Assembly: GCA_017889625.1 (NCBI GenBank)
Contig: JAGGAD010000007.1
Span: forward strand, 1-57,277
DNA: 57,277 nt
Reading direction: 5' to 3'
Source of the DNA: Bacillota bacterium
GTDB lineage: Bacteria; Bacillota; Negativicutes; Sporomusales; CTSoil-080
Both the position numbers and the translations under genes were made by a program. The notes below the pieces were generated by a model, which searched no databases, was not told the origin of the DNA, and saw only the letters and a program-made list of their open reading frames with translations. Within the stretch, counting starts at the first letter, position 1; each line of letters opens with the position of its first letter. Positions 4,283 to 35,705 of this stretch are shown here, in pieces.

Positions 4283-4311
4283 TTGACGGAGCTGCCATAG
4301 ACTGATAAAAT
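4283..4311 (+). promoter_or_regulatory. Sigma-A type promoter of the purine leader
   Basis: TTGACG (4283-4288), 17-base spacer, TAAAAT (4306-4311). A start near 4318 would place the guanine aptamer at the very 5' end of the transcript. Confidence 0.7.
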
Positions 4312-4332
4312 AATAGTGAAAAAAGTTTATAC

Positions 4333-4403
4333 TGCTCGTATAATTTTGAGGATATGGCTCAAAAGTATCTACCAGGTACCCGTAAAGTATCTAACTACGA
4401 GTG
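4333..4403 (+). promoter_or_regulatory. Guanine-class purine riboswitch aptamer
   Basis: P1 is CTCGTA (4335-4340) with TACGAG (4396-4401). Between them lie the conserved TATAAT, GGATATGG, TCTACC and CCGTAAA elements of the purine aptamer, with two hairpins. The specificity base in AACTAC (4395) is C, which pairs guanine or hypoxanthine; adenine aptamers have U. It is followed within a few bases by a ykkC-class aptamer, so it has no separate terminator of its own. Confidence 0.9.
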
Positions 4404-4405
4404 AA

Positions 4406-4522
4406 AGTGTGCCTAGGGTTCCACATAGCCAATGGGTTTATTTTTGGTTATGGTCGAGACCAAGTGGCACAGGTGTTACCCAGTAACATTACACCGATGG
4501 GATAAAAGCCCGGGCGGGGAGG
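4406..4522 (+). promoter_or_regulatory. PRPP riboswitch aptamer (ykkC subtype 2b)
   Basis: Contains the ykkC hallmark CCTAGGGTTCC near 4412, GGTCGAGACC near 4451, ACACCG near 4491 and the 3' signature GGGATAAAAGCCCGGGCGGG (about 4499-4518). The ykkC scaffold binds guanidine, ppGpp or PRPP depending on subtype. Tandem placement behind a guanine aptamer and in front of purine genes is the known arrangement of PRPP-binding members. Its 3' strand is also the 5' arm of the terminator, so ligand binding would prevent termination (an ON switch). The ligand assignment is from context, not measured. Confidence 0.85.
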
Positions 4523-4570
4523 TTTCGCTCATTTACGAGAAAGAAATTTCCCTGCCCGGGCTAATTTTTT
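4507..4570 (+). terminator. Riboswitch-controlled terminator
   Basis: Fourteen-position stem AGCCCGGGCGGGGA (4507-4520) with 4549-4562, one mismatch, internal hairpin region, then TAATTTTTT. The 5' arm overlaps the conserved 3' end of the PRPP aptamer, giving mutually exclusive structures. Confidence 0.9.
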
Positions 4571-4651
4571 GTTGTTAGGGGGGCAGAAAAAGAATGGTGT
4601 GTGGCAACTGGGGATAATATTATCAGACTAGATTCTGGAAGAGGGGACAAA

Positions 4652-6025
4652 ATGCTAGATAAATATTTTGCGCTTACTGCGCGGAAAACTGATGTCAAAA
4701 CGGAGGTTTTTGCCGGTATTACGACCTTCATGACAATGGCCTACATATTGTTTGTCAATCCAAGTGTTCTTGGTGCGGCAGGCATGGACAAGAATGCTGT
4801 GCTAATAGCGACAGCACTTGGCGCCGGATTTGTCACTATGGCGATGGGCGCTTTTGTTAATTATCCGATCTCGCTTGCTCCAGGCATGGGTCTGAACGCT
4901 TTTTACGCTTTCACTGTAGTCCTTGGTATGGGAGTATCCTGGCAGATTGCGTTGGGTGCGGTATTTATTTCCGGCCTGATTTTTATTTTATTGACCTTAA
5001 CAAAAGTACGGCAGCTTTTAGTTGAAGCCATTCCGGCATCGCTTAAAAGTGCAATTAGTGTCGGTATTGGGTTGTTCATTACTATTGTTGGGTTGAAACT
5101 ATCAGGAATCATGAGCATAAAACTGTCTTTGCTTGCTCCGACACTGGAAAAACTTGTCGCGACAAACGGACATGCTACGCCGCTGAGTGTTGAGACGATT
5201 ATTGCTATGGGCGATTTTGCCAACAAAGATGTGTTGTTATCAGTATTCGGACTTATCGTAATTTCCGTATTGATGGCGTGGAGAGTAAAAGGTGCGATGT
5301 TGTGGGGCATTCTAGCTACCACAGTGTTGGGAATAATAATGGGTGTGGTTCATGTTCCGGCTGGCTTTAGTCCGGTAGCAATGCCTGACTTCAGCAATAA
5401 TGCATTTTTGCAGCTGGACATTCCCGGGGCCATTAATATGGGTTTGATGACCATTATCTTCACATTTACTTTTGTTGAACTTTTCGATACGATGGGAACC
5501 CTGGTTGGTACGGCAACCAAAGCTGGACTGATGGATAAAGACGGTAAGTTTCCTGGAATCGGTAAAGCGATGCTGGTAGACGCTACCGGGGTAAGCTTTG
5601 GCGCACTTATTGGTACAAGCACTATTACTTGCTTCGTGGAAAGTACCGCCGGTATCGGCGAAGGCGGCCGCACTGGATTGACGGCGGTAGTCTGTGGGAT
5701 ATTATTTGTTTTGGCCTTGTTCTTCTCCCCGCTGGCAGGACTTATTCCTGATGCGGCTACCGCTCCGGCGCTGATCATAGTTGGGGCGTTGATGATGGAA
5801 TCGATAAAAGCTATTGACTTCAGTGATATCACCGAAGGCTTGCCAGCTTTCTTGACCTTGGCGCTTATGCCGTTCACCTATAGCATTGCTAACGGGGTAT
5901 CAGCTGGCCTGGTATTCTATCCGTTGCTGAAACTTGTGAGTGGTCGTGGCCGTGACGTACACTGGATTGTCTATGTTTTGGCAGTTTTAGTAATAGCGAG
6001 ATATATATTCTTGGCAGAAGGCTAG
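4652..6025 (+). CDS. NCS2-family nucleobase permease (guanine/hypoxanthine type)
   Basis: 457 residues from ATG 4652, which has AGAGGGG upstream and gives the family-typical start MLDKYFAL; a GTG at 4601 would add 17 atypical residues. Multi-spanning inner-membrane protein of the AzgA-like branch (PbuG/PbuO relatives). Signatures are TTFMTMAYILFVNPSVL, the NYPISLAPGMGLNAFYAF segment, FVELFDTMGTLVG and TSTITCFVESTAGIGEGGRT. It imports purine bases by proton symport. Control by the guanine plus PRPP leader makes sense: it is shut when guanine is plentiful and open when PRPP is available for salvage. Confidence 0.9.
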   Translation: MLDKYFALTARKTDVKTEVFAGITTFMTMAYILFVNPSVLGAAGMDKNAVLIATALGAGFVTMAMGAFVNYPISLAPGMGLNAFYAFTVVLGMGVSWQIALGAVFISGLIFILLTLTKVRQLLVEAIPASLKSAISVGIGLFITIVGLKLSGIMSIKLSLLAPTLEKLVATNGHATPLSVETIIAMGDFANKDVLLSVFGLIVISVLMAWRVKGAMLWGILATTVLGIIMGVVHVPAGFSPVAMPDFSNNAFLQLDIPGAINMGLMTIIFTFTFVELFDTMGTLVGTATKAGLMDKDGKFPGIGKAMLVDATGVSFGALIGTSTITCFVESTAGIGEGGRTGLTAVVCGILFVLALFFSPLAGLIPDAATAPALIIVGALMMESIKAIDFSDITEGLPAFLTLALMPFTYSIANGVSAGLVFYPLLKLVSGRGRDVHWIVYVLAVLVIARYIFLAEG

Positions 6026-6058: not shown

Positions 6059-6101
6059 AGACCCAGATGCCGTGGTCTATAATCCCGGCATCTGGGTTTC
6101 T
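6059..6101 (+). terminator. Hairpin between permease and purE
   Basis: ACCCAGATGCCG (6061-6072) pairs perfectly with 6086-6097, with a loop of 13 bases and a short TTTCTT tail. It may end or attenuate transcripts from the permease. No clear separate promoter for purE was seen between it and 6142, so partial read-through is likely. Confidence 0.6.
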
Positions 6102-6141: not shown

Positions 6142-6633
6142 ATGAAAGTTGCGATTATTATGGGAAGTGACTCTGATTTACCGGTAATGGAACCGGCAAT
6201 TAAGACATTAGCTGAATTTGGCATTGGCTATGAGGTTGTGGTAGCTTCGGCACACCGCACCCCGGATAAAGTTCATAACTTTGTTGCTAACGCTGCTGAG
6301 CAGGGCTTTAGCGCGATAATCGCTGCTGCCGGAGCTGCAGCTCATTTGCCGGGAGTAGTTGCCAGTTTTACCTTGCTGCCGGTTATTGGAGTACCGGTAA
6401 ACAGCACTTCGCTGGGGGGGCTTGATGCACTGCTCAGCATTGTACAAATGCCATCAGGCATACCAGTAGCCACTATGGCTATCAATGGAGCAAAAAATGC
6501 CGCTATTTTTGCGGTGCAGATTATTGCGGCAAGTAACCCTGAACTGGCGAAAAAACTTAGTAGTTATCGTCAGAAAATGGCTGCTGAAGTTGAAGCCAAG
6601 GCTGCCAAAGTAGAAGCCAAACTAAAAGGATAA
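6142..6633 (+). CDS. purE: N5-carboxyaminoimidazole ribonucleotide mutase (class I PurE)
   Basis: Converts N5-CAIR to CAIR in de novo purine synthesis. 163 residues, normal family length. It shows GSDSDLP (near 9-15), SAHRTP (near 37-42), AAHLPG and LLSIVQMPSGIPVAT, the class I pattern. Class I enzymes normally work with PurK, but no purK is present here; it may lie elsewhere. The start has AAAGGAG upstream. It is the first gene of the purE-C-F-M-N-H-D operon, and its last 20 residues are Ala/Lys/Glu-rich (EAKAAKVEAKLKG), a slightly extended helix. Confidence 0.95.
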   Translation: MKVAIIMGSDSDLPVMEPAIKTLAEFGIGYEVVVASAHRTPDKVHNFVANAAEQGFSAIIAAAGAAAHLPGVVASFTLLPVIGVPVNSTSLGGLDALLSIVQMPSGIPVATMAINGAKNAAIFAVQIIAASNPELAKKLSSYRQKMAAEVEAKAAKVEAKLKG

Positions 6634-6668
6634 AGTTTAAAGGCAAAACTTAGGAGGAGTGATTAATA

Positions 6669-7376
6669 ATGAACGAAGCATTATATGAAGGTAAAGCGAA
6701 AAAGGTTTATGCGACATCAAATCCGGATGAGTATTTGGTATATTACAAAGATGACGCCACCGCGTTTAATGGTATCAAAAAAGGCACAATTGACAGCAAA
6801 GGTGTGCTGAATAACAAAATATCCACCTTCTTTTTTGAACTCTTGACCCAAAACGGTGTACCTAACCACTTTGTTCGCATGGTTAGTGACCGTGAAATGT
6901 TAGTTAAAAAACTGACAATTGTACAAATTGAGGTAGTCGTACGAAACATTGCCGCCGGAAGTTTGGCTAAACGTATTGGCTGGGAAGAAGGCCGGAAATT
7001 GCCTTCGCCAGTAGTAGAATTTTATTATAAAGATGATGACCTGGGCGATCCGTTAATAAATGAAGATCATGCCCGAGCCCTTAATTTGGCCACTGATGAA
7101 CAAATGAAAGCTTTGAAACAATGGGGCCTTAAAATTAATCAAATTCTTAGTACCTTCTTGAAAGAAAAGAAAGTCGAACTTATCGATTTTAAACTTGAAT
7201 TCGGTCTCCATAATGGCCAACTTCTGTTAGGTGATGAAATATCACCGGATACCTGTCGGTTCTGGGACAGCGAAACCGGCCAAAAATTGGATAAAGATAG
7301 ATTTCGTCGTGATCTGGGCGACGTTGAGGCTGCTTATAAAGAAATTCTAAAACGTCTCACAGGGGAAACTTGCTAA
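6669..7376 (+). CDS. purC: Phosphoribosylaminoimidazole-succinocarboxamide synthase
   Basis: Joins CAIR and aspartate using ATP to give SAICAR. 235 residues, the typical bacterial length. Recognisable are [10 protein letters not shown] at the N-terminus (ATP site), [22 protein letters not shown] and the [12 protein letters not shown] motif that binds nucleotide and metal. AGGAGG lies just ahead of the ATG at 6669. It sits 35 bases after purE in the same operon. Confidence 0.97.
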
Positions 7377-7408
7377 TATAAATAAAAATCCGGGGAGGGG
7401 TGGACTGG

Positions 7409-8863
7409 GTGTATCAAGAACTAGACATGGATAAACCGCATGAGGAATGTGGTATATTTGGAATATTTTCCCGACAAGATGATGTAGCCCTTAATACCTA
7501 TTGGGGGCTGTATGCACTTCAGCACCGTGGTCAGGAAAGTGCCGGGATTGCATTAAGTGATGGAGCTCGAATGGAAGTTGAACGAGGCATGGGCTTGGTC
7601 AATGAAGTGTTTCGCAAGGGTTTGCCCGTTCTTGATGGATCCTATATTAGCATCGGACATGTAAGGTACTCAACCACTGGGTCAAGTCTGTTAGCAAATA
7701 CCCAGCCGCTCATGGTAAATTACTCTGGCGGTCGGATTAGCCTGGCCCACAATGGCAATCTTACCAATGCCCGGGAAGTAAGAGCAGAGTTAGAAGCAAA
7801 AGGTAGTGTTTTTCAGACTTCAATTGACAGTGAAGTGATTGTGAATCTTATTGCTAGAGAACCTCATCCGGAAATTGAAGATAAGATAGGTGAAAGCTTA
7901 GCTAAGATCGAGGGCGCTTATTGCCTGGTAATTATGACGGAAACCAAGCTCATTGGAGTGCGTGATCCTAATGGTTTCCGGCCGCTGTGTATTGGAAAAC
8001 TCAATGATGGTTGGGTAATGGCTTCGGAATCCTGTGCCTTAGATACGGTCGGCGCAGAATTCGTAAGAGATGTTGAACCAGGCGAAATGGTAATCGTTGA
8101 TGAAAATGGTCTTACGTCGCGGAAGTTTACGAAGGCGGGTCAACGGGCGCTATGTGTATTTGAATACATTTATTTTGCCCGACCAGATAGTGCCATTGAC
8201 GGGCAAAGTGTATACTCAGCCAGATTTGCCATGGGCCGGCAATTAGCGCGGGAAAGCGGGGCGAAGGCGGATATTGTTATTTCCGTACCTGATTCAGGGA
8301 CAACTGCGGCCTTAGGTTATAGCTACGAAAGTGGAATACCCTTCGCGGAAGGTCTAATAAAGAACCGCTATATTGGGCGGACGTTTATTCAGCCGGAACA
8401 GAAAAAACGCGATTCCAGTGTGCGGATAAAGCTTAATGCCAATAAAGCGGTAGTAGCCGGAAAATCGGTAGTAATGGTAGATGACTCGATTGTTCGCGGC
8501 ACGACCAGCGGTAAGATCGTTCGTATGCTGAAAGAAGCTGGAGCTACCGCCGTTCACATGTGTGTAAGCTCGCCGCCAATTGCGTATCCGTGCTATTATG
8601 GCATAGACACCGCGGTTCGCAAGGAACTTGTTGCGGCAACGAAAACAGTAGAAGAAATACGCCAATATATTGGGGCGGAGTCTTTGACCTATCTTTCGTT
8701 AGACGGCCTGTATAAAGCCGTTCCTCATATTCCCTGTGACCAGATGTGCTATGCTTGTTTCAATGGCGGATATATGGCGGGAGTGCCGCGGCAAGACGTG
8801 GATGACAGCAATAAATATATGTTTGAGGCAGCTTGCGGAAAAACAGGAGGCGGTAAAAGATAA
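7409..8863 (+). CDS. purF: Amidophosphoribosyltransferase
   Basis: Catalyses the first committed purine step, PRPP plus glutamine to phosphoribosylamine. Start GTG 7409 is chosen because GGGGAGGGG (7392-7400) lies eight bases upstream; GTG 7400 would overlap it. 484 residues. A short propeptide precedes the nucleophile Cys in HEECGIFG, which must be exposed by cleavage. The glutaminase domain is followed by the phosphoribosyltransferase domain with the PRPP loop VVMVDDSIVRGTT. Cysteines in ALCVFEYIYF, near YPCYYG and in CYACFNGGY match the 4Fe-4S cluster set of the Bacillus-type enzyme, suggesting oxygen sensitivity. Confidence 0.96.
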   Translation: MYQELDMDKPHEECGIFGIFSRQDDVALNTYWGLYALQHRGQESAGIALSDGARMEVERGMGLVNEVFRKGLPVLDGSYISIGHVRYSTTGSSLLANTQPLMVNYSGGRISLAHNGNLTNAREVRAELEAKGSVFQTSIDSEVIVNLIAREPHPEIEDKIGESLAKIEGAYCLVIMTETKLIGVRDPNGFRPLCIGKLNDGWVMASESCALDTVGAEFVRDVEPGEMVIVDENGLTSRKFTKAGQRALCVFEYIYFARPDSAIDGQSVYSARFAMGRQLARESGAKADIVISVPDSGTTAALGYSYESGIPFAEGLIKNRYIGRTFIQPEQKKRDSSVRIKLNANKAVVAGKSVVMVDDSIVRGTTSGKIVRMLKEAGATAVHMCVSSPPIAYPCYYGIDTAVRKELVAATKTVEEIRQYIGAESLTYLSLDGLYKAVPHIPCDQMCYACFNGGYMAGVPRQDVDDSNKYMFEAACGKTGGGKR

Positions 8864-9915
8864 TGAGTGAGGGTTTAACCTATCGCCAGGCTGGTGTGGA
8901 TGTTGATGCTGGCAATAAAGCAGTAGAACTCATGAAAGGACATGTTAAGTCTACCTATCGGCCGGAAGTACTGGGCGATCTTGGTGGGTTTGGCGGTCTG
9001 TTCGCGCTTGGTGCGGCTAAATATAAAGAACCGGTATTAGTTAGCGGTACCGACGGTGTCGGTACTAAACTTAGAATTGCTTTTATGATGGATAAACATG
9101 ATACCATCGGCCAGGACGCGGTAGCGATGTGTGTTAATGATATTTTGGTGCAGGGTGCGGAACCGCTGTTCTTTCTGGACTATTTGGCTGTAGGCAAACT
9201 TGAACCGGAGAAAGTCGCCGCTATTGTTAGCGGCGTAGCTTCGGCCTGTAAAGAGTCAGGCTGTGCCCTAATCGGGGGAGAAACGGCAGAAATGGCTGGT
9301 TTCTATGCAGATGGTGAATACGATATTGCCGGATTTGCGGTAGGCATTGCCGATAAAGCGAAACTTATCACCGGACAAAAAATTACCGCTGGTGATGTTT
9401 TAATTGGCTTGCCGTCCTCGGGATTACATTCCAATGGTTTTTCTTTGGTGCGTAAAATCTGTTTTGAGGCAGCTAAGCTTACCCCGGATGCCTATATCGA
9501 TGAGTTAAAGTCTACCTTGGGTGAAGAACTTATGGTTCCAACCAGACTATATCCCAAAGTTTGCCTGCCGCTGATTGAACAGTTTGATATTCGCGGTATG
9601 GTTCATATTACCGGCGGCGGCTTCTACGAAAATATCCCCCGGGTATTGCCGGAGGGTTGCGGCGTAGAAGTAGACAGCACCGCGTGGCCTAAACCAGCTA
9701 TCTTTGAACTTTTGCAAAAATGGGGTAATGTAGCTTGGCCGGAAATGTACCGGACCTTTAATATGGGGATTGGGATGATTCTAGTCGTGTCCCCGGACGA
9801 AGCAGTTAACCTCAAAAAATATCTTGCTGACCAAGGTGAAGCTTGCTATACAATCGGAAAAGTAACCGCAGGCGCTGGTAAAGTGACGCTGCGGGGAGGC
9901 GTCTTTGGTGAATAG
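8863..9915 (+). CDS. purM: Phosphoribosylformylglycinamidine cyclo-ligase (AIR synthetase)
   Basis: Closes the imidazole ring of FGAM with ATP to form AIR. 350 residues. It shows VSGTDGVGTKLRIAF, DAVAMCVNDILVQGAEPLFFLDY and GGETAEMAGFY, the paired ATP-binding signatures of the PurM/PurL superfamily. Start ATG overlaps the purF stop by one base (TAATG) with AGGAGG upstream, indicating coupled translation. Confidence 0.97.
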   Translation: MSEGLTYRQAGVDVDAGNKAVELMKGHVKSTYRPEVLGDLGGFGGLFALGAAKYKEPVLVSGTDGVGTKLRIAFMMDKHDTIGQDAVAMCVNDILVQGAEPLFFLDYLAVGKLEPEKVAAIVSGVASACKESGCALIGGETAEMAGFYADGEYDIAGFAVGIADKAKLITGQKITAGDVLIGLPSSGLHSNGFSLVRKICFEAAKLTPDAYIDELKSTLGEELMVPTRLYPKVCLPLIEQFDIRGMVHITGGGFYENIPRVLPEGCGVEVDSTAWPKPAIFELLQKWGNVAWPEMYRTFNMGIGMILVVSPDEAVNLKKYLADQGEACYTIGKVTAGAGKVTLRGGVFGE

Positions 9916-10531
9916 TACTGTACTAGGGGTGCTTGTGTCCGGACGCGGCAGTAACCTTCAGGCTATTTTAGATGCTATCAACGCCGGAAAAATTAACGCT
10001 AAAATTAGTGTAGTTATCAGTGACAAGGCGGATACTTTTGCCCTCAAACGGGTAGCTGGGCTGGGTATTGCCACTGCTGTAATCGAGCGTAAAGCCTTTG
10101 CAAGTAAAGATCAATTTGAAGCCGCTTTGGTGGCAGAGCTTAAGGATCATAAGGTTGAATTGGTCGTATTAGCCGGGTTTATGCGGTTATTAGGAAACAA
10201 ATTTATCAGTGCGTATCCGGGGCGGGTTATGAATATTCATCCGGCTCTATTGCCGGCCTTTCCAGGGTTGAATGCTCAGCAACAGGCGCTTGATTATGGG
10301 GTTAAGCTGTCGGGCTGTACGGTACATTTCGTGGATGAAGGTATGGATTCTGGGCCAATAATACTACAGCAGGCAGTGCCTGTTGAGAGCTCAGACACTG
10401 AAGAGACCTTAGCGGCGCGTATATTAGAAGTTGAACATATCCTTTATCCCCGGGCTATTAGTCTCTTTTGTCAGAGGCGGCTTAGTCTAAAGAACCGGCA
10501 GGTAGTAATAACTGACGAAAAATCTGAATAG
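9908..10531 (+). CDS. purN: Phosphoribosylglycinamide formyltransferase (folate-dependent)
   Basis: Transfers formyl from 10-formyl-THF to GAR. 207 residues from GTG 9908; TTG 9905 is an alternative, and both lie downstream of GGGGAGG (9893-9899). It overlaps the end of purM by eight bases. N-terminal LVSGRGSNLQAIL is the phosphate loop. MNIHPALLPAFPG and the later DEGMDSGPII supply the catalytic Asn, His and Asp region. Dependence on folate formyl donors is notable alongside the FolT-like transporter at 2606, though no direct link is shown. Confidence 0.96.
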   Translation: MNSTVLGVLVSGRGSNLQAILDAINAGKINAKISVVISDKADTFALKRVAGLGIATAVIERKAFASKDQFEAALVAELKDHKVELVVLAGFMRLLGNKFISAYPGRVMNIHPALLPAFPGLNAQQQALDYGVKLSGCTVHFVDEGMDSGPIILQQAVPVESSDTEETLAARILEVEHILYPRAISLFCQRRLSLKNRQVVITDEKSE

Positions 10532-10542
10532 GGGGATGTTAA

Positions 10543-12081
10543 ATGAAAATTCAGCGGGCACTTATAAGTGTATCTGATAAAACGGGCGTGGTTGACTTCG
10601 CGAAGACGTTAAATAGTTACGGGGTAGAAATAATTTCTACCGGCGGCACGATGAAGGCGCTTCGTGAAGCGGGTATACCAGTTACTTATGTTAGTGAAAT
10701 AACTGGTTTCCCCGAAATAATGGACGGACGGGTTAAAACTCTTAACCCATATATTCACGGGGGAATTTTGGCGGTTCGCGATAATCAAGAACATATAAAG
10801 GCGATGCAAGAGCATAATATTCGGGGCATTGACCTAGTCGTAGTGAATCTGTATCCGTTTCGCCAGACCATCGCTAAACCAGGCGTTGCTCTGGAGGAAG
10901 CGGTAGAAAACATCGATATTGGCGGTCCGGCCATGATTCGGGCAGCGGCTAAGAATTTTGCCTATGTCACGGTAGTTGTCAATCCGGCGCGCTATGACGC
11001 TGTCTTAGCGGAAATGGCCCAAGATGGCCAAATTACTGACGCCACGAGAATGGCGCTAGCTCGGGAAGCATTTGATCATACTGCGGAGTATGATGCTTGT
11101 ATTACAAACTACTTAGCTGGTCAGACTGGTGAAGGGCATTTTAAAAATTCCCTGCACATGGTTTACGAAAAAGTACAAGACTTGCGCTATGGCGAAAATC
11201 CGCATCAGCAAGCAGCGTTCTACCGGGAAAAACACTATAATGGTCCCGGTGTGGCCAATGCACATCAGCTTCATGGCAAAGAATTATCCTTCAATAACTT
11301 GGTTGATGTAGAAGCGGCCTATTCATTAGTCAACGATTTTTCTGAACCGGCAGCTGCCATAATAAAACATACCAATCCTTGTGGCACCGGGATTGGTGAA
11401 ACTATTGCCGATGCTTATGAAAAAGCTTATACTGCTGACCCTGTTTCGGCCTATGGGGGCATTATTGCTCTAAACCGGGCGGTAGATGGGGCGGTAGCAG
11501 AAAAAATGAGCAGCTTATTTGTTGAAGCCGTAATTGCTCCGGCGTACAGTGAAGAAGCATTAGCTATTTTGACTAAGAAAAAAAATGTCCGGCTATTGGC
11601 AGCGGATTTTGTTGTTGATCAAAATGCTTTGGATTTTAAGAAAATCTCGGGCGGCTTGTTGGTGCAACAGGCTGACATCAATGATGCAACTCGCGCCGAT
11701 ATGAAAGTAGTAACCACCAAGACCCCTACTCCGGCTGAATGGCAGCAGCTGCTATTGGCCTGGAAAGTGGTCAAACATGTAAAATCCAATGCTATTGTAG
11801 TTGTAGCTGACAATATGACGGTTGGGGTAGGGGCCGGCCAGATGAATCGGGTTGGCTCAGCCCAAATAGCCTTTGAACAGGCCGGCTGTAAATCGGTGGG
11901 GGCAGTACTGGCATCGGATGCATTTTTCCCGTTCAGGGACACCGTTGATGCTGCCGCTAAGGCTGGCATAACGGCAATTATTCATCCCGGTGGATCGATT
12001 CGGGATGAAGAGTCAATTACGGCAGCTAACGAACATGGTATAGCCATGGTCTTTACAGGCATACGGCATTTCAAACACTAG
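10543..12081 (+). CDS. purH: Bifunctional AICAR transformylase / IMP cyclohydrolase
   Basis: Performs the last two steps of IMP synthesis. 512 residues, standard length. The N-terminal cyclohydrolase (about 1-195) begins [11 protein letters not shown] and includes STGGTMKAL and DGRVKTLNP. The C-terminal transformylase contains [37 protein letters not shown] and the ending [10 protein letters not shown]. The ATG follows AGGGGGAT in the purN-purH gap of 11 bases. Confidence 0.97.
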
Positions 12082-12106
12082 TTTTATGTGAGAACGGGGT
12101 GGTATA

Positions 12107-13384
12107 TTGCGTATTTTGGTGATCGGCGGAGGCGGACGTGAACACGCCTTGGTTTGGAAACTTGCGGCAAGCCCGCGAGTTTCTAAGATTTATTGTGCCC
12201 CCGGTAATCCGGGAATCAGTAAACTCGCGGAATGTGTTAACATTGCTGTAACTGACAACGAGGCGTTGTGTCAGCTGGCTAAAGATAAAAATATTGACTT
12301 AACCGTAGTTGGACCGGAAGGTCCGCTAACCGAAGGCATTGTAGATCTTTTTACGGCAAACGGCCTGAAAATTTTTGGGCCTAATAAAGCAGCGGCCCAG
12401 CTTGAAGGCTCAAAAACATTTTCCAAAGATTTAATGAGAAAATACGGTATACCTACAGCTAAATACGCAGTATTTACCGATGCTGTCAGCGCTAAAAAAT
12501 ATGTTAAAGAACAAGGCGCGCCGATTGTAATTAAAGCGGACGGTTTGGCTGCTGGCAAAGGTGTAGTTGTTGCAATGTCGTTAGATGAAGCCCTTGCGGC
12601 GGTAGACATGATTATGTGCGACCAGGCGTTTGGCAATGCCGGAGCCCAAGTGGTAATCGAAGAATTTATGCAAGGGGAAGAAGCTTCACTCTTAGCCTTT
12701 ACCGACGGCGTAACCGTTGTGCCAATGGTGGCGGCTCAAGATCACAAACGGGTTTTTGACGGCGACCAGGGGCCGAATACCGGGGGGATGGGAGCATATG
12801 CGCCAGCACCAGTGGTAACGCCAGACTTATTGGAACAAGTTGTCCGGAAAATATTGCAGCCAACGGTCAATGCTATGCGGCAGGAAGGGTGCTTATACCG
12901 GGGGTGCTTATATGCCGGACTGATGATTGGGGCCGAAGGACCTAAAGTTGTCGAGTTTAATGCCCGGTTTGGCGACCCTGAAACTCAGGTAGTATTGCCG
13001 TTGCTCGTCAGCGACCTTACCGAGATAATGGAAGCTTGCATTGACGGTAAACTTAATCAAGTATCAGTTGAGTGGAAACAAGAAGCAGCAGTATGTGTAG
13101 TAATGGCTGCTGGCGGTTATCCGGGCAGCTATCAAAAAGGTAAAATTATAACCGGTCTTGACGCGGCAGAAGAAAAAGGGGCCGTAGTATTCCATGCTGG
13201 AACCTCGCTGGATAGTGGGGCAGTAGTTACCAGCGGCGGCAGAGTCCTGGGGGTTACCGCGATTGGGTCAAATCTGCAGCCAGCCCTTCAAAATGCCTAT
13301 ACGGGAGTGGAACAGATTGATTTTGAGGGAGTTCACTACCGTAAAGATATTGCTCATCGGGCTGTAGCCAGAATTGATAAGTAG
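12107..13384 (+). CDS. purD: Phosphoribosylamine-glycine ligase
   Basis: Makes GAR from phosphoribosylamine, glycine and ATP. 425 residues with TTG start (12107) after GGGGTGG. N-terminal Rossmann-like loop VIGGGGREHAL, ATP-grasp core with VIKADGLAAGKGV, NTGGMGAYAPAP and EFNARFGDPETQ. It is the last gene of the purine operon, closed by the hairpin at 13404. purB, purK and the purL/Q/S set are not in the window, so the pathway is completed from other loci. Confidence 0.97.
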   Translation: MRILVIGGGGREHALVWKLAASPRVSKIYCAPGNPGISKLAECVNIAVTDNEALCQLAKDKNIDLTVVGPEGPLTEGIVDLFTANGLKIFGPNKAAAQLEGSKTFSKDLMRKYGIPTAKYAVFTDAVSAKKYVKEQGAPIVIKADGLAAGKGVVVAMSLDEALAAVDMIMCDQAFGNAGAQVVIEEFMQGEEASLLAFTDGVTVVPMVAAQDHKRVFDGDQGPNTGGMGAYAPAPVVTPDLLEQVVRKILQPTVNAMRQEGCLYRGCLYAGLMIGAEGPKVVEFNARFGDPETQVVLPLLVSDLTEIMEACIDGKLNQVSVEWKQEAAVCVVMAAGGYPGSYQKGKIITGLDAAEEKGAVVFHAGTSLDSGAVVTSGGRVLGVTAIGSNLQPALQNAYTGVEQIDFEGVHYRKDIAHRAVARIDK

Positions 13385-28123: not shown

Positions 28124-28365
28124 TAAAAAAATCCCGTCCTAAGAAGGACGAGATTATTGTTCCCGCGGTACCACCTAAATTAGCCTGAAGGCTCATCTTT
28201 TTTCCTGTTAACGCCGGGATTACGGAAAGGCTTACTAATTTCGGCCCACTGCTCCAGGGTGGCTTTCCATGGCATTTATCCTGCCGGCTTTCACCTTATC
28301 CGGCTCTCTAAGAGGATAATCGGCATGTACTGTCCCTGTCATTGCTGTGTAAATATTAAGATTTT
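28124..28365 (-). promoter_or_regulatory. T-box riboswitch, probable alanine specifier
   Basis: Minus-strand leader. Stem I has AGTA, AGAGAG, GGTGAAAG and CACCCTGGAGCAG in canonical order. The T-box TTTAGGTGGTACCGCGG is at 28179-28163. The terminator hairpin is 28154-28131 (ATCTCGTCCT with AGGACGGGAT) followed by seven Ts. The specifier loop reads GAAAGCCA before the closing CCCTG helix. GCC at 28263-28261 followed by A fits an Ala codon; AGC (Ser) in the adjacent register is the main alternative. Uncharged tRNA would prevent termination and switch on the regulator and aminotransferase. Confidence 0.88.
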
Positions 28366-35088: not shown

Positions 35089-35110
35089 AAAAATGTAATT
35101 ACTGGAAATT

Positions 35111-35322
35111 GAATATATACGAGGTAGGTGCCCTTAGGGGCTTAATAGGGAATACCGGTTAAAAACCGGAGCGGTCCCGCCACTGTAATGATGAGCAAAC
35201 CCAAGGACATGCCACTGAGACGAAAGTCTTGGGAAGGTTTGGGCAAGCAATGATTCAGAGCCAGGAGAACTGCCTATCTGTCAATCACCGCTTATTTTAC
35301 CCACGAGCGATGGGGAGGAGAT
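35111..35322 (+). promoter_or_regulatory. Cobalamin riboswitch, copy 1
   Basis: Canonical B12 box elements in order: GAGGTAGGTGCCC, GGGAATACCGGT, CCGGAGCGGTCCCGCCACTG, GCCAGGAGAACTGCC. The tail GGGGAGGAGAT (35312-35322) is complementary to the 5' arm of the downstream hairpin at 35408, so it can act as anti-terminator. It is nearly identical to copy 2. Confidence 0.93.
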
Positions 35323-35492: not shown

Positions 35493-35705
35493 TTCAATAT
35501 ACGCGAGGTAGGTGCCCTTAGGGGCTTAATAGGGAATACCGGTTAAAAACCGGAGCGGTCCCGCCACTGTAATGATGAGCAAACCCAAGGATATGCCACT
35601 GAGACGAAAGTCTTGGGAAGGTTTGGGCAAGCAATGATTCAAAGCCAGGAGAACTGCCTATCTGTCAATCACCGTTTATTTACCCACGAGCGATGGGGAG
35701 GAGAT
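35493..35705 (+). promoter_or_regulatory. Cobalamin riboswitch, copy 2
   Basis: Same element order as copy 1, with only a handful of substitutions over about 200 bases, so the duplication is recent or under gene conversion. The tail GGGGAGGAGAT (35695-35705) is complementary to TCCTCCC at 35772-35778, the anti-Shine-Dalgarno arm of the hairpin before btuF. Confidence 0.93.

Follow-up and report, generated by a model that had tools for sequence, protein, structure and literature searches.

A guanine-PRPP tandem riboswitch before a purine permease and the pur genes: comparative support for a proposed shared-strand mechanism

The window, that is the whole stretch of 57,277 nucleotides that we analysed, belongs to a 3.3-Mb draft genome (label G000) whose nearest named relatives among the matches listed are Sporomusa and Pelosinus (Negativicutes). 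A tandem element at 4333-4571, in good agreement with the bounds of 4333-4570 given in the original prediction, lies in the RNA leader of a gene cluster for a purine permease and purine synthesis. The parts of the locus are as follows.

4283..4311, + strand: sigma-70-like promoter TTGACG-17-TAAAAT (consensus match only)
4333..4403, + strand: guanine aptamer (RF00167 score; fold)
4399..4530, + strand: PRPP aptamer (ykkC subtype 2b) including P0 (scaffold, markers, relatives)
4399..4406, + strand: P0 5' strand GAGUGAAA (fold, covariation, growing-transcript folds)
4523..4530, + strand: P0 3' strand UUUCGCUC, which pairs with 4399-4406 or joins the terminator
4507..4571, + strand: intrinsic terminator common to both aptamers (fold; arms 4507-4526/4543-4562; U-run 4565-4570)
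4652..6025, + strand: purine permease, NCS2/AzgA-type (PbuG-like) (PF00860)
6061..6097, + strand: intercistronic hairpin ACCCAGATGCCG...CGGCATCTGGGT, then UUUCUUAU; perhaps a weak terminator or a signal for processing
6142..13384, + strand: purE, purC, purF, purM, purN, purH and purD, every gene above its NCBIfam cut-off

The best solved relatives of the permease are the AZG1/AZG2 adenine/guanine permeases. Judging from the promoter-like site, transcription is expected to start near 4318; as such sites gave 3 matches in the scan against 4.7 in shuffles, only the position of this one is informative. Elsewhere in the window, we noticed two near-identical cobalamin riboswitches (35109-35291 and 35493-35675, 384 bases apart), each seemingly with its own terminator hairpin, that precede a BtuF-like/TonB-receptor/CbiK-like cluster, as well as a T-box leader (28141-28351, minus strand) with the putative specifier GCC (Ala) before an Lrp/AsnC-like regulator and an aminotransferase.

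By scanning the whole window with cmscan, we located the RF00167 purine aptamer at 4316-4417; its 82 bits (E 3.2e-13) exceed the curated cut-off of 37. In the fold, 4333-4340 pairs with 4396-4403 to form P1, and the specificity position is a C at 4395, within AACUACGAG, which we equate with C74 in the numbering of the xpt riboswitch. This bears out the guanine class, with a C at the specificity position, that had been proposed.

The second aptamer was not found by Rfam at the default gathering threshold. In E-value mode on a 431-base stretch, the ykkC scaffold (RF00442) matched 4402-4518 with 49.6 bits (E 5.2e-8), a match hidden at default settings because it lies under the gathering score of 63. 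Covariance searches of the kind proposed with the original prediction recovered both halves of the element, and the ykkC-class aptamer indeed follows the guanine aptamer directly, their ends overlapping. In the register that we obtained, A5/G6 fall at 4406/4407, G48/Y49 at 4464/4465, A74-C78 at 4491-4495, G95-G97 at 4512-4514 and G104/G105 at 4521/4522. The window carries the PRPP markers U4465 (pyrimidine 49), C75-A76-C77-C78 (4492-4495), G4513 (G96) and GG (4521/4522), and the spacing 75-78-96-104-105 equals that of the crystal structure. Moreover, the MFE fold of 4399-4530 contains the ykkC stems and P3, and its tails form the 8-bp P0 helix 4399-4406/4523-4530. Position 49 is a pyrimidine in PRPP and ppGpp aptamers and an A in guanidine-I ones, position 96 is a G in more than 97% of PRPP aptamers and is absent or another base in ppGpp ones, and C75, C77, C78, G104 and G105 contact the ligand or G96 (PMC6031431).

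These features bear on two other identities of the second aptamer. First, it is detected by the guanidine-I covariance model, as a guanidine-I riboswitch would be. However, its 49.6 bits compare with at least 63 for guanidine-I membership, residue 49 is a U where guanidine-I has an A (PMC6031431), P0 tails are present and guanidine genes are absent nearby, which makes this identity practically untenable. Second, a ppGpp switch (subtype 2a) would turn the leader into a guanine/ppGpp gate. The scaffold is identical in kind, the PRPP and ppGpp consensus being almost nested, and the genome has three further ykkC RNAs that look from their sequence like ppGpp switches, located before a glutamate-synthase-like (gltB-like) gene, before leuA with its T-box and before a paaK-like gene. 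Yet all three are without G96: they read CCC-GG-CGG, CUC-UG-CGG and CUC-UAG-CGG, with a 2-nt or UAG linker before CGG and the 96-equivalent G missing or replaced by A, whereas the window reads CCC-GGG-CGG and holds the equivalent at 4513 at the exact spacing. Given also the purine permease and pur genes as context, we regard a ppGpp switch as very improbable. Among these three RNAs, the one before leuA (L002, G000:C59:112527-112626, minus strand) is directly followed by a T-box, the known ppGpp/T-box tandem, and the one with an A at the 96 equivalent (L004, G000:C9:4657-4758, minus strand) precedes a phenylacetate-CoA-ligase-like gene, an unusual partner.

A pattern scan with one genome per species returned at least 118 stretches, mostly true tandems, and the tandem matches listed include Sporomusa, Pelosinus, Brevibacillus, Tumebacillus, Alicyclobacillus, Desulfotomaculum-like bacteria, Alkaliphilus and others. 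Position 96 was not part of the DNA pattern, and it is a G in 109 of the 109 parsable tandem relatives among the matches listed. The PRPP subtype that had been predicted, rather than guanidine or ppGpp, is thus supported by G4513, U4465 and more than 100 relatives, and the subtype comparison gave nothing against it. When 100 genomes of the class were sampled, a purine match was directly followed by a ykkC match in no fewer than 33 of them (counted from coordinates), so that the arrangement is usual in this group. After about 40 tandems (window included; among the matches listed), the first gene is homologous to the window permease, usually with purE next, and purE itself directly follows the tandem in about 17 (again among the matches listed). 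Tandem guanine-PRPP-like leaders were also seen on metagenome-bin contigs labelled Chloroflexi and Proteobacteria (L020, L037, L064 and L086), which would place them outside Firmicutes if the bin labels are right.

No terminator was found between the guanine and PRPP aptamers, the single one being at 4507-4562. In the fold of 4503-4572, it consists of 20 continuous pairs and an apical 3-bp hairpin (-42.5 kcal/mol), followed by U6. Within its 5' arm (4507-4526) lie the 3' strand of P3, the G95-G97 pocket and the first bases of the P0 3' strand, which confirms that the ykkC-class aptamer shares its 3' strand with a strong terminator. In addition to what the original prediction described, the end helices of the two aptamers overlap: the guanine P1 3' strand (4396-4403) and the P0 5' strand (4399-4406) have five bases in common (4399-4403). 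Mutual exclusion of P0 and guanine P1 had been predicted for Thermoanaerobacter mathranii from one folded sequence (PMC6031431), and the structural changes of the IMPLY gate were described as not yet established in a 2022 review (PMC9481103).

Across the relatives, we found the shared strand to covary with each of its two partners. For this comparison, the shared bases were unconstrained in the search pattern (N{3,14}), and a conserved GUUUC, not pairing, served to place the P0 3' strand. The matches listed gave 76 distinct rows, in which 26 types of shared strand occur. With one row per strand type, the P0 duplex score was 324.7 with the own partner and 231.7 +/- 14.5 (sd) with swapped ones, and 0 of 1000 swaps reached the former; kinship was ignored, and since related sequences are not independent these numbers describe rather than prove. 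As the P1 5' strand was chosen by its pairing, the corresponding P1 test is biased, and the P0 test alone was used. Most tandems (among the matches listed) have the triple state GAG/CUC/CUC, replaced by GUG/CAC/CAC in L025, L117 and L140 (Desulforadius and Desulfotomaculum-type loci) and by AGC/GCU/GCU in L125; in the P0 of L122, a G-to-A is paired with a C-to-U change.

Folding of growing transcripts, also when begun at other 5' ends, gave mostly P1 until about 4520, then P0 at 4540-4550 (probability about 0.8-0.95), and P1 plus terminator once the terminator 3' arm emerges. P1 and P0 were separated by less than about 4 kcal/mol. Their balance moved by a few kcal/mol with the transcription start assumed, which also decided the one that was favoured. 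The ligand-free full-length MFE fold is P1 plus terminator, so that folding at equilibrium would not make ON the default state. These models place the gate near balance, as needed for a ligand-controlled choice, and leave its default state unfixed.

According to the mechanism that we propose, the strand 4396-4406 would have two alternative partners: pairing with 4333-4340 (P1) would close the guanine aptamer, and pairing with 4523-4530 (P0) the PRPP aptamer. Guanine would lock P1, thereby freeing the P0 and P3 strands and allowing the terminator 4507-4562 to form (off). PRPP would lock P0 and P3 and hold the terminator 5' arm, so that the polymerase could read into the permease gene (on), and this on-state would override guanine. 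Ligand-dependent switching is here expected by analogy with the family (PMC5912903). We conclude, with a probability of about 93%, that the leader 4333-4571 is a guanine-PRPP tandem riboswitch acting at transcription termination.

The same genome holds a second guanine aptamer (L006, G000:C113:61873-62130), before xpt-pbuX. Its leader has the GAGUGAAA/UUUCGCUC pairing as in the window, with 100 nt between the strands, and retains only 26/44 conserved PRPP positions yet the full antiterminator pairing; with its PRPP core so eroded, it is presumably guanine-only. That PRPP aptamers have eroded in such sister leaders could suggest that the PRPP half is non-functional in the window too. Against this, the window retains all 44 of the columns whose conservation reaches 97% or more across 105 tandems (among the matches listed), some of these columns being fixed by the search pattern itself, and we find a loss of function there hardly credible.

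Xpt leaders of other Negativicutes showed erosion to different degrees. One is intact (L202 in G449, 44/44 PRPP positions), those of several Pelosinus-type genomes mostly keep 33-40 of 44, with pocket changes unlike in each, L227 has an internal deletion, and in L232 the guanine and PRPP aptamers are both eroded; in most Sporomusa, no leader was found before xpt. In L203-L215 and L219, the P1 3' strand generally still pairs over 8 bp or more with a UUUCGCUC-like strand further downstream; in L204, L209 and L215, a stronger nearby duplex outranks this pairing. The 3' part of the xpt leaders is also held by the terminator. From these sequences, the simplest reading is that PRPP control was lost and guanine control retained via P0 as antiterminator. 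A changed ligand is possible in some xpt leaders. We considered a variant ykkC aptamer for a new ligand, and erosion is favoured, though not proven, because the pocket changes vary from leader to leader and the terminator constrains the 3' part. A history of gain alone, in which a PRPP aptamer was inserted in a guanine antiterminator, was set aside, since the xpt leaders indicate loss from an intact tandem (L202, 44/44). Two guanine-only leaders before a xanthine-dehydrogenase-like gene (L217 and L218) have the same antiterminator pairing, its strands being only about 30 nt apart. We favour, as a reasonably probable model, that the IMPLY gate works by three-strand exchange, with P0 doubling as the guanine antiterminator, and that the Negativicutes xpt leaders are natural ex-gates with a stepwise erosion of the PRPP aptamer, the P0 pairing being kept in most since guanine control needs it.

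How far the control by the leader extends depends on the hairpin at 6061-6097. A stem AACCCAGATAT/ATATCTGGGTT lies between pbuG and purE in many Sporomusa and Pelosinus relatives, and the window has this stem too, its base changes being compensated (GATGCC/GGCATC). Other relatives have an unrelated hairpin at this position, and in L033, L054 and L110 the pbuG-purE gap is 30-40 nt without a hairpin. A genome-wide repeat was ruled out, as the hairpin is single-copy in the genome. With 12 or more pairs followed by UUUCUUAU and a position kept in many Sporomusa/Pelosinus relatives, the hairpin could end the transcript, in which case the tandem would govern the permease only and the pur genes would be transcribed from another promoter. 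However, its 3' U-run is weak, no promoter-like site was found between 6026 and 6141, the three relatives with short gaps do without a hairpin and about 17 tandems (among the matches listed) stand directly before purE, all of which makes control of the permease alone unlikely. The likeliest role of the hairpin would be that of a partial terminator or a processing/stability signal, by which the pur genes would be expressed less than the permease. The whole pur operon is likely under the control of the leader, dependent on read-through of this conserved hairpin past 6097 into purE-purD. The proposal that import and de novo synthesis are both gated here is favoured by the conserved synteny and tempered by the conserved hairpin that parts pbuG from purE.

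The tandem guanine-PRPP class was already known (Sherlock et al. 2018, PMC5912903), with 192 tandems counted in the 2022 review (PMC9481103). In line with the established class to which the leader had been assigned (PMC5912903), its aptamers overlap and share one terminator, and the window element is a standard, well-conserved member. Like the Bacillus megaterium codA tandem (PMC5912903), it has the same aptamer order, a spacing of a few bases, one shared terminator and purine genes 3' of it; the tested B. megaterium locus is codA, whereas in the window a purine permease comes first and then the pur operon. Compared with the T. mathranii PRPP aptamer (PDB 6CK5, PMC6031431), the P0 helix and the C75/G96/G104/G105 spacing are identical, and P0 and guanine P1 are predicted to be mutually exclusive in both; in the window P0 has 8 bp, of which five bases are common to guanine P1, and covariation evidence is added. 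Within its own genome, the xpt-pbuX singlet shares the guanine aptamer, the P0-type pairing and a terminator but not the PRPP core, and the ppGpp riboswitches (ykkC subtype 2a) share the scaffold but not G96. The window element is thus ordinary for its class, and its value is comparative. What is new is the comparative support for the shared-strand mechanism together with the eroded xpt leaders: across 26 types of shared strand (among the matches listed), covariation gives evolutionary support to the proposed P0/P1 exclusion, and one genome with an intact gate before the pur operon and an eroded one before xpt-pbuX offers a pair for testing which parts carry guanine control alone.
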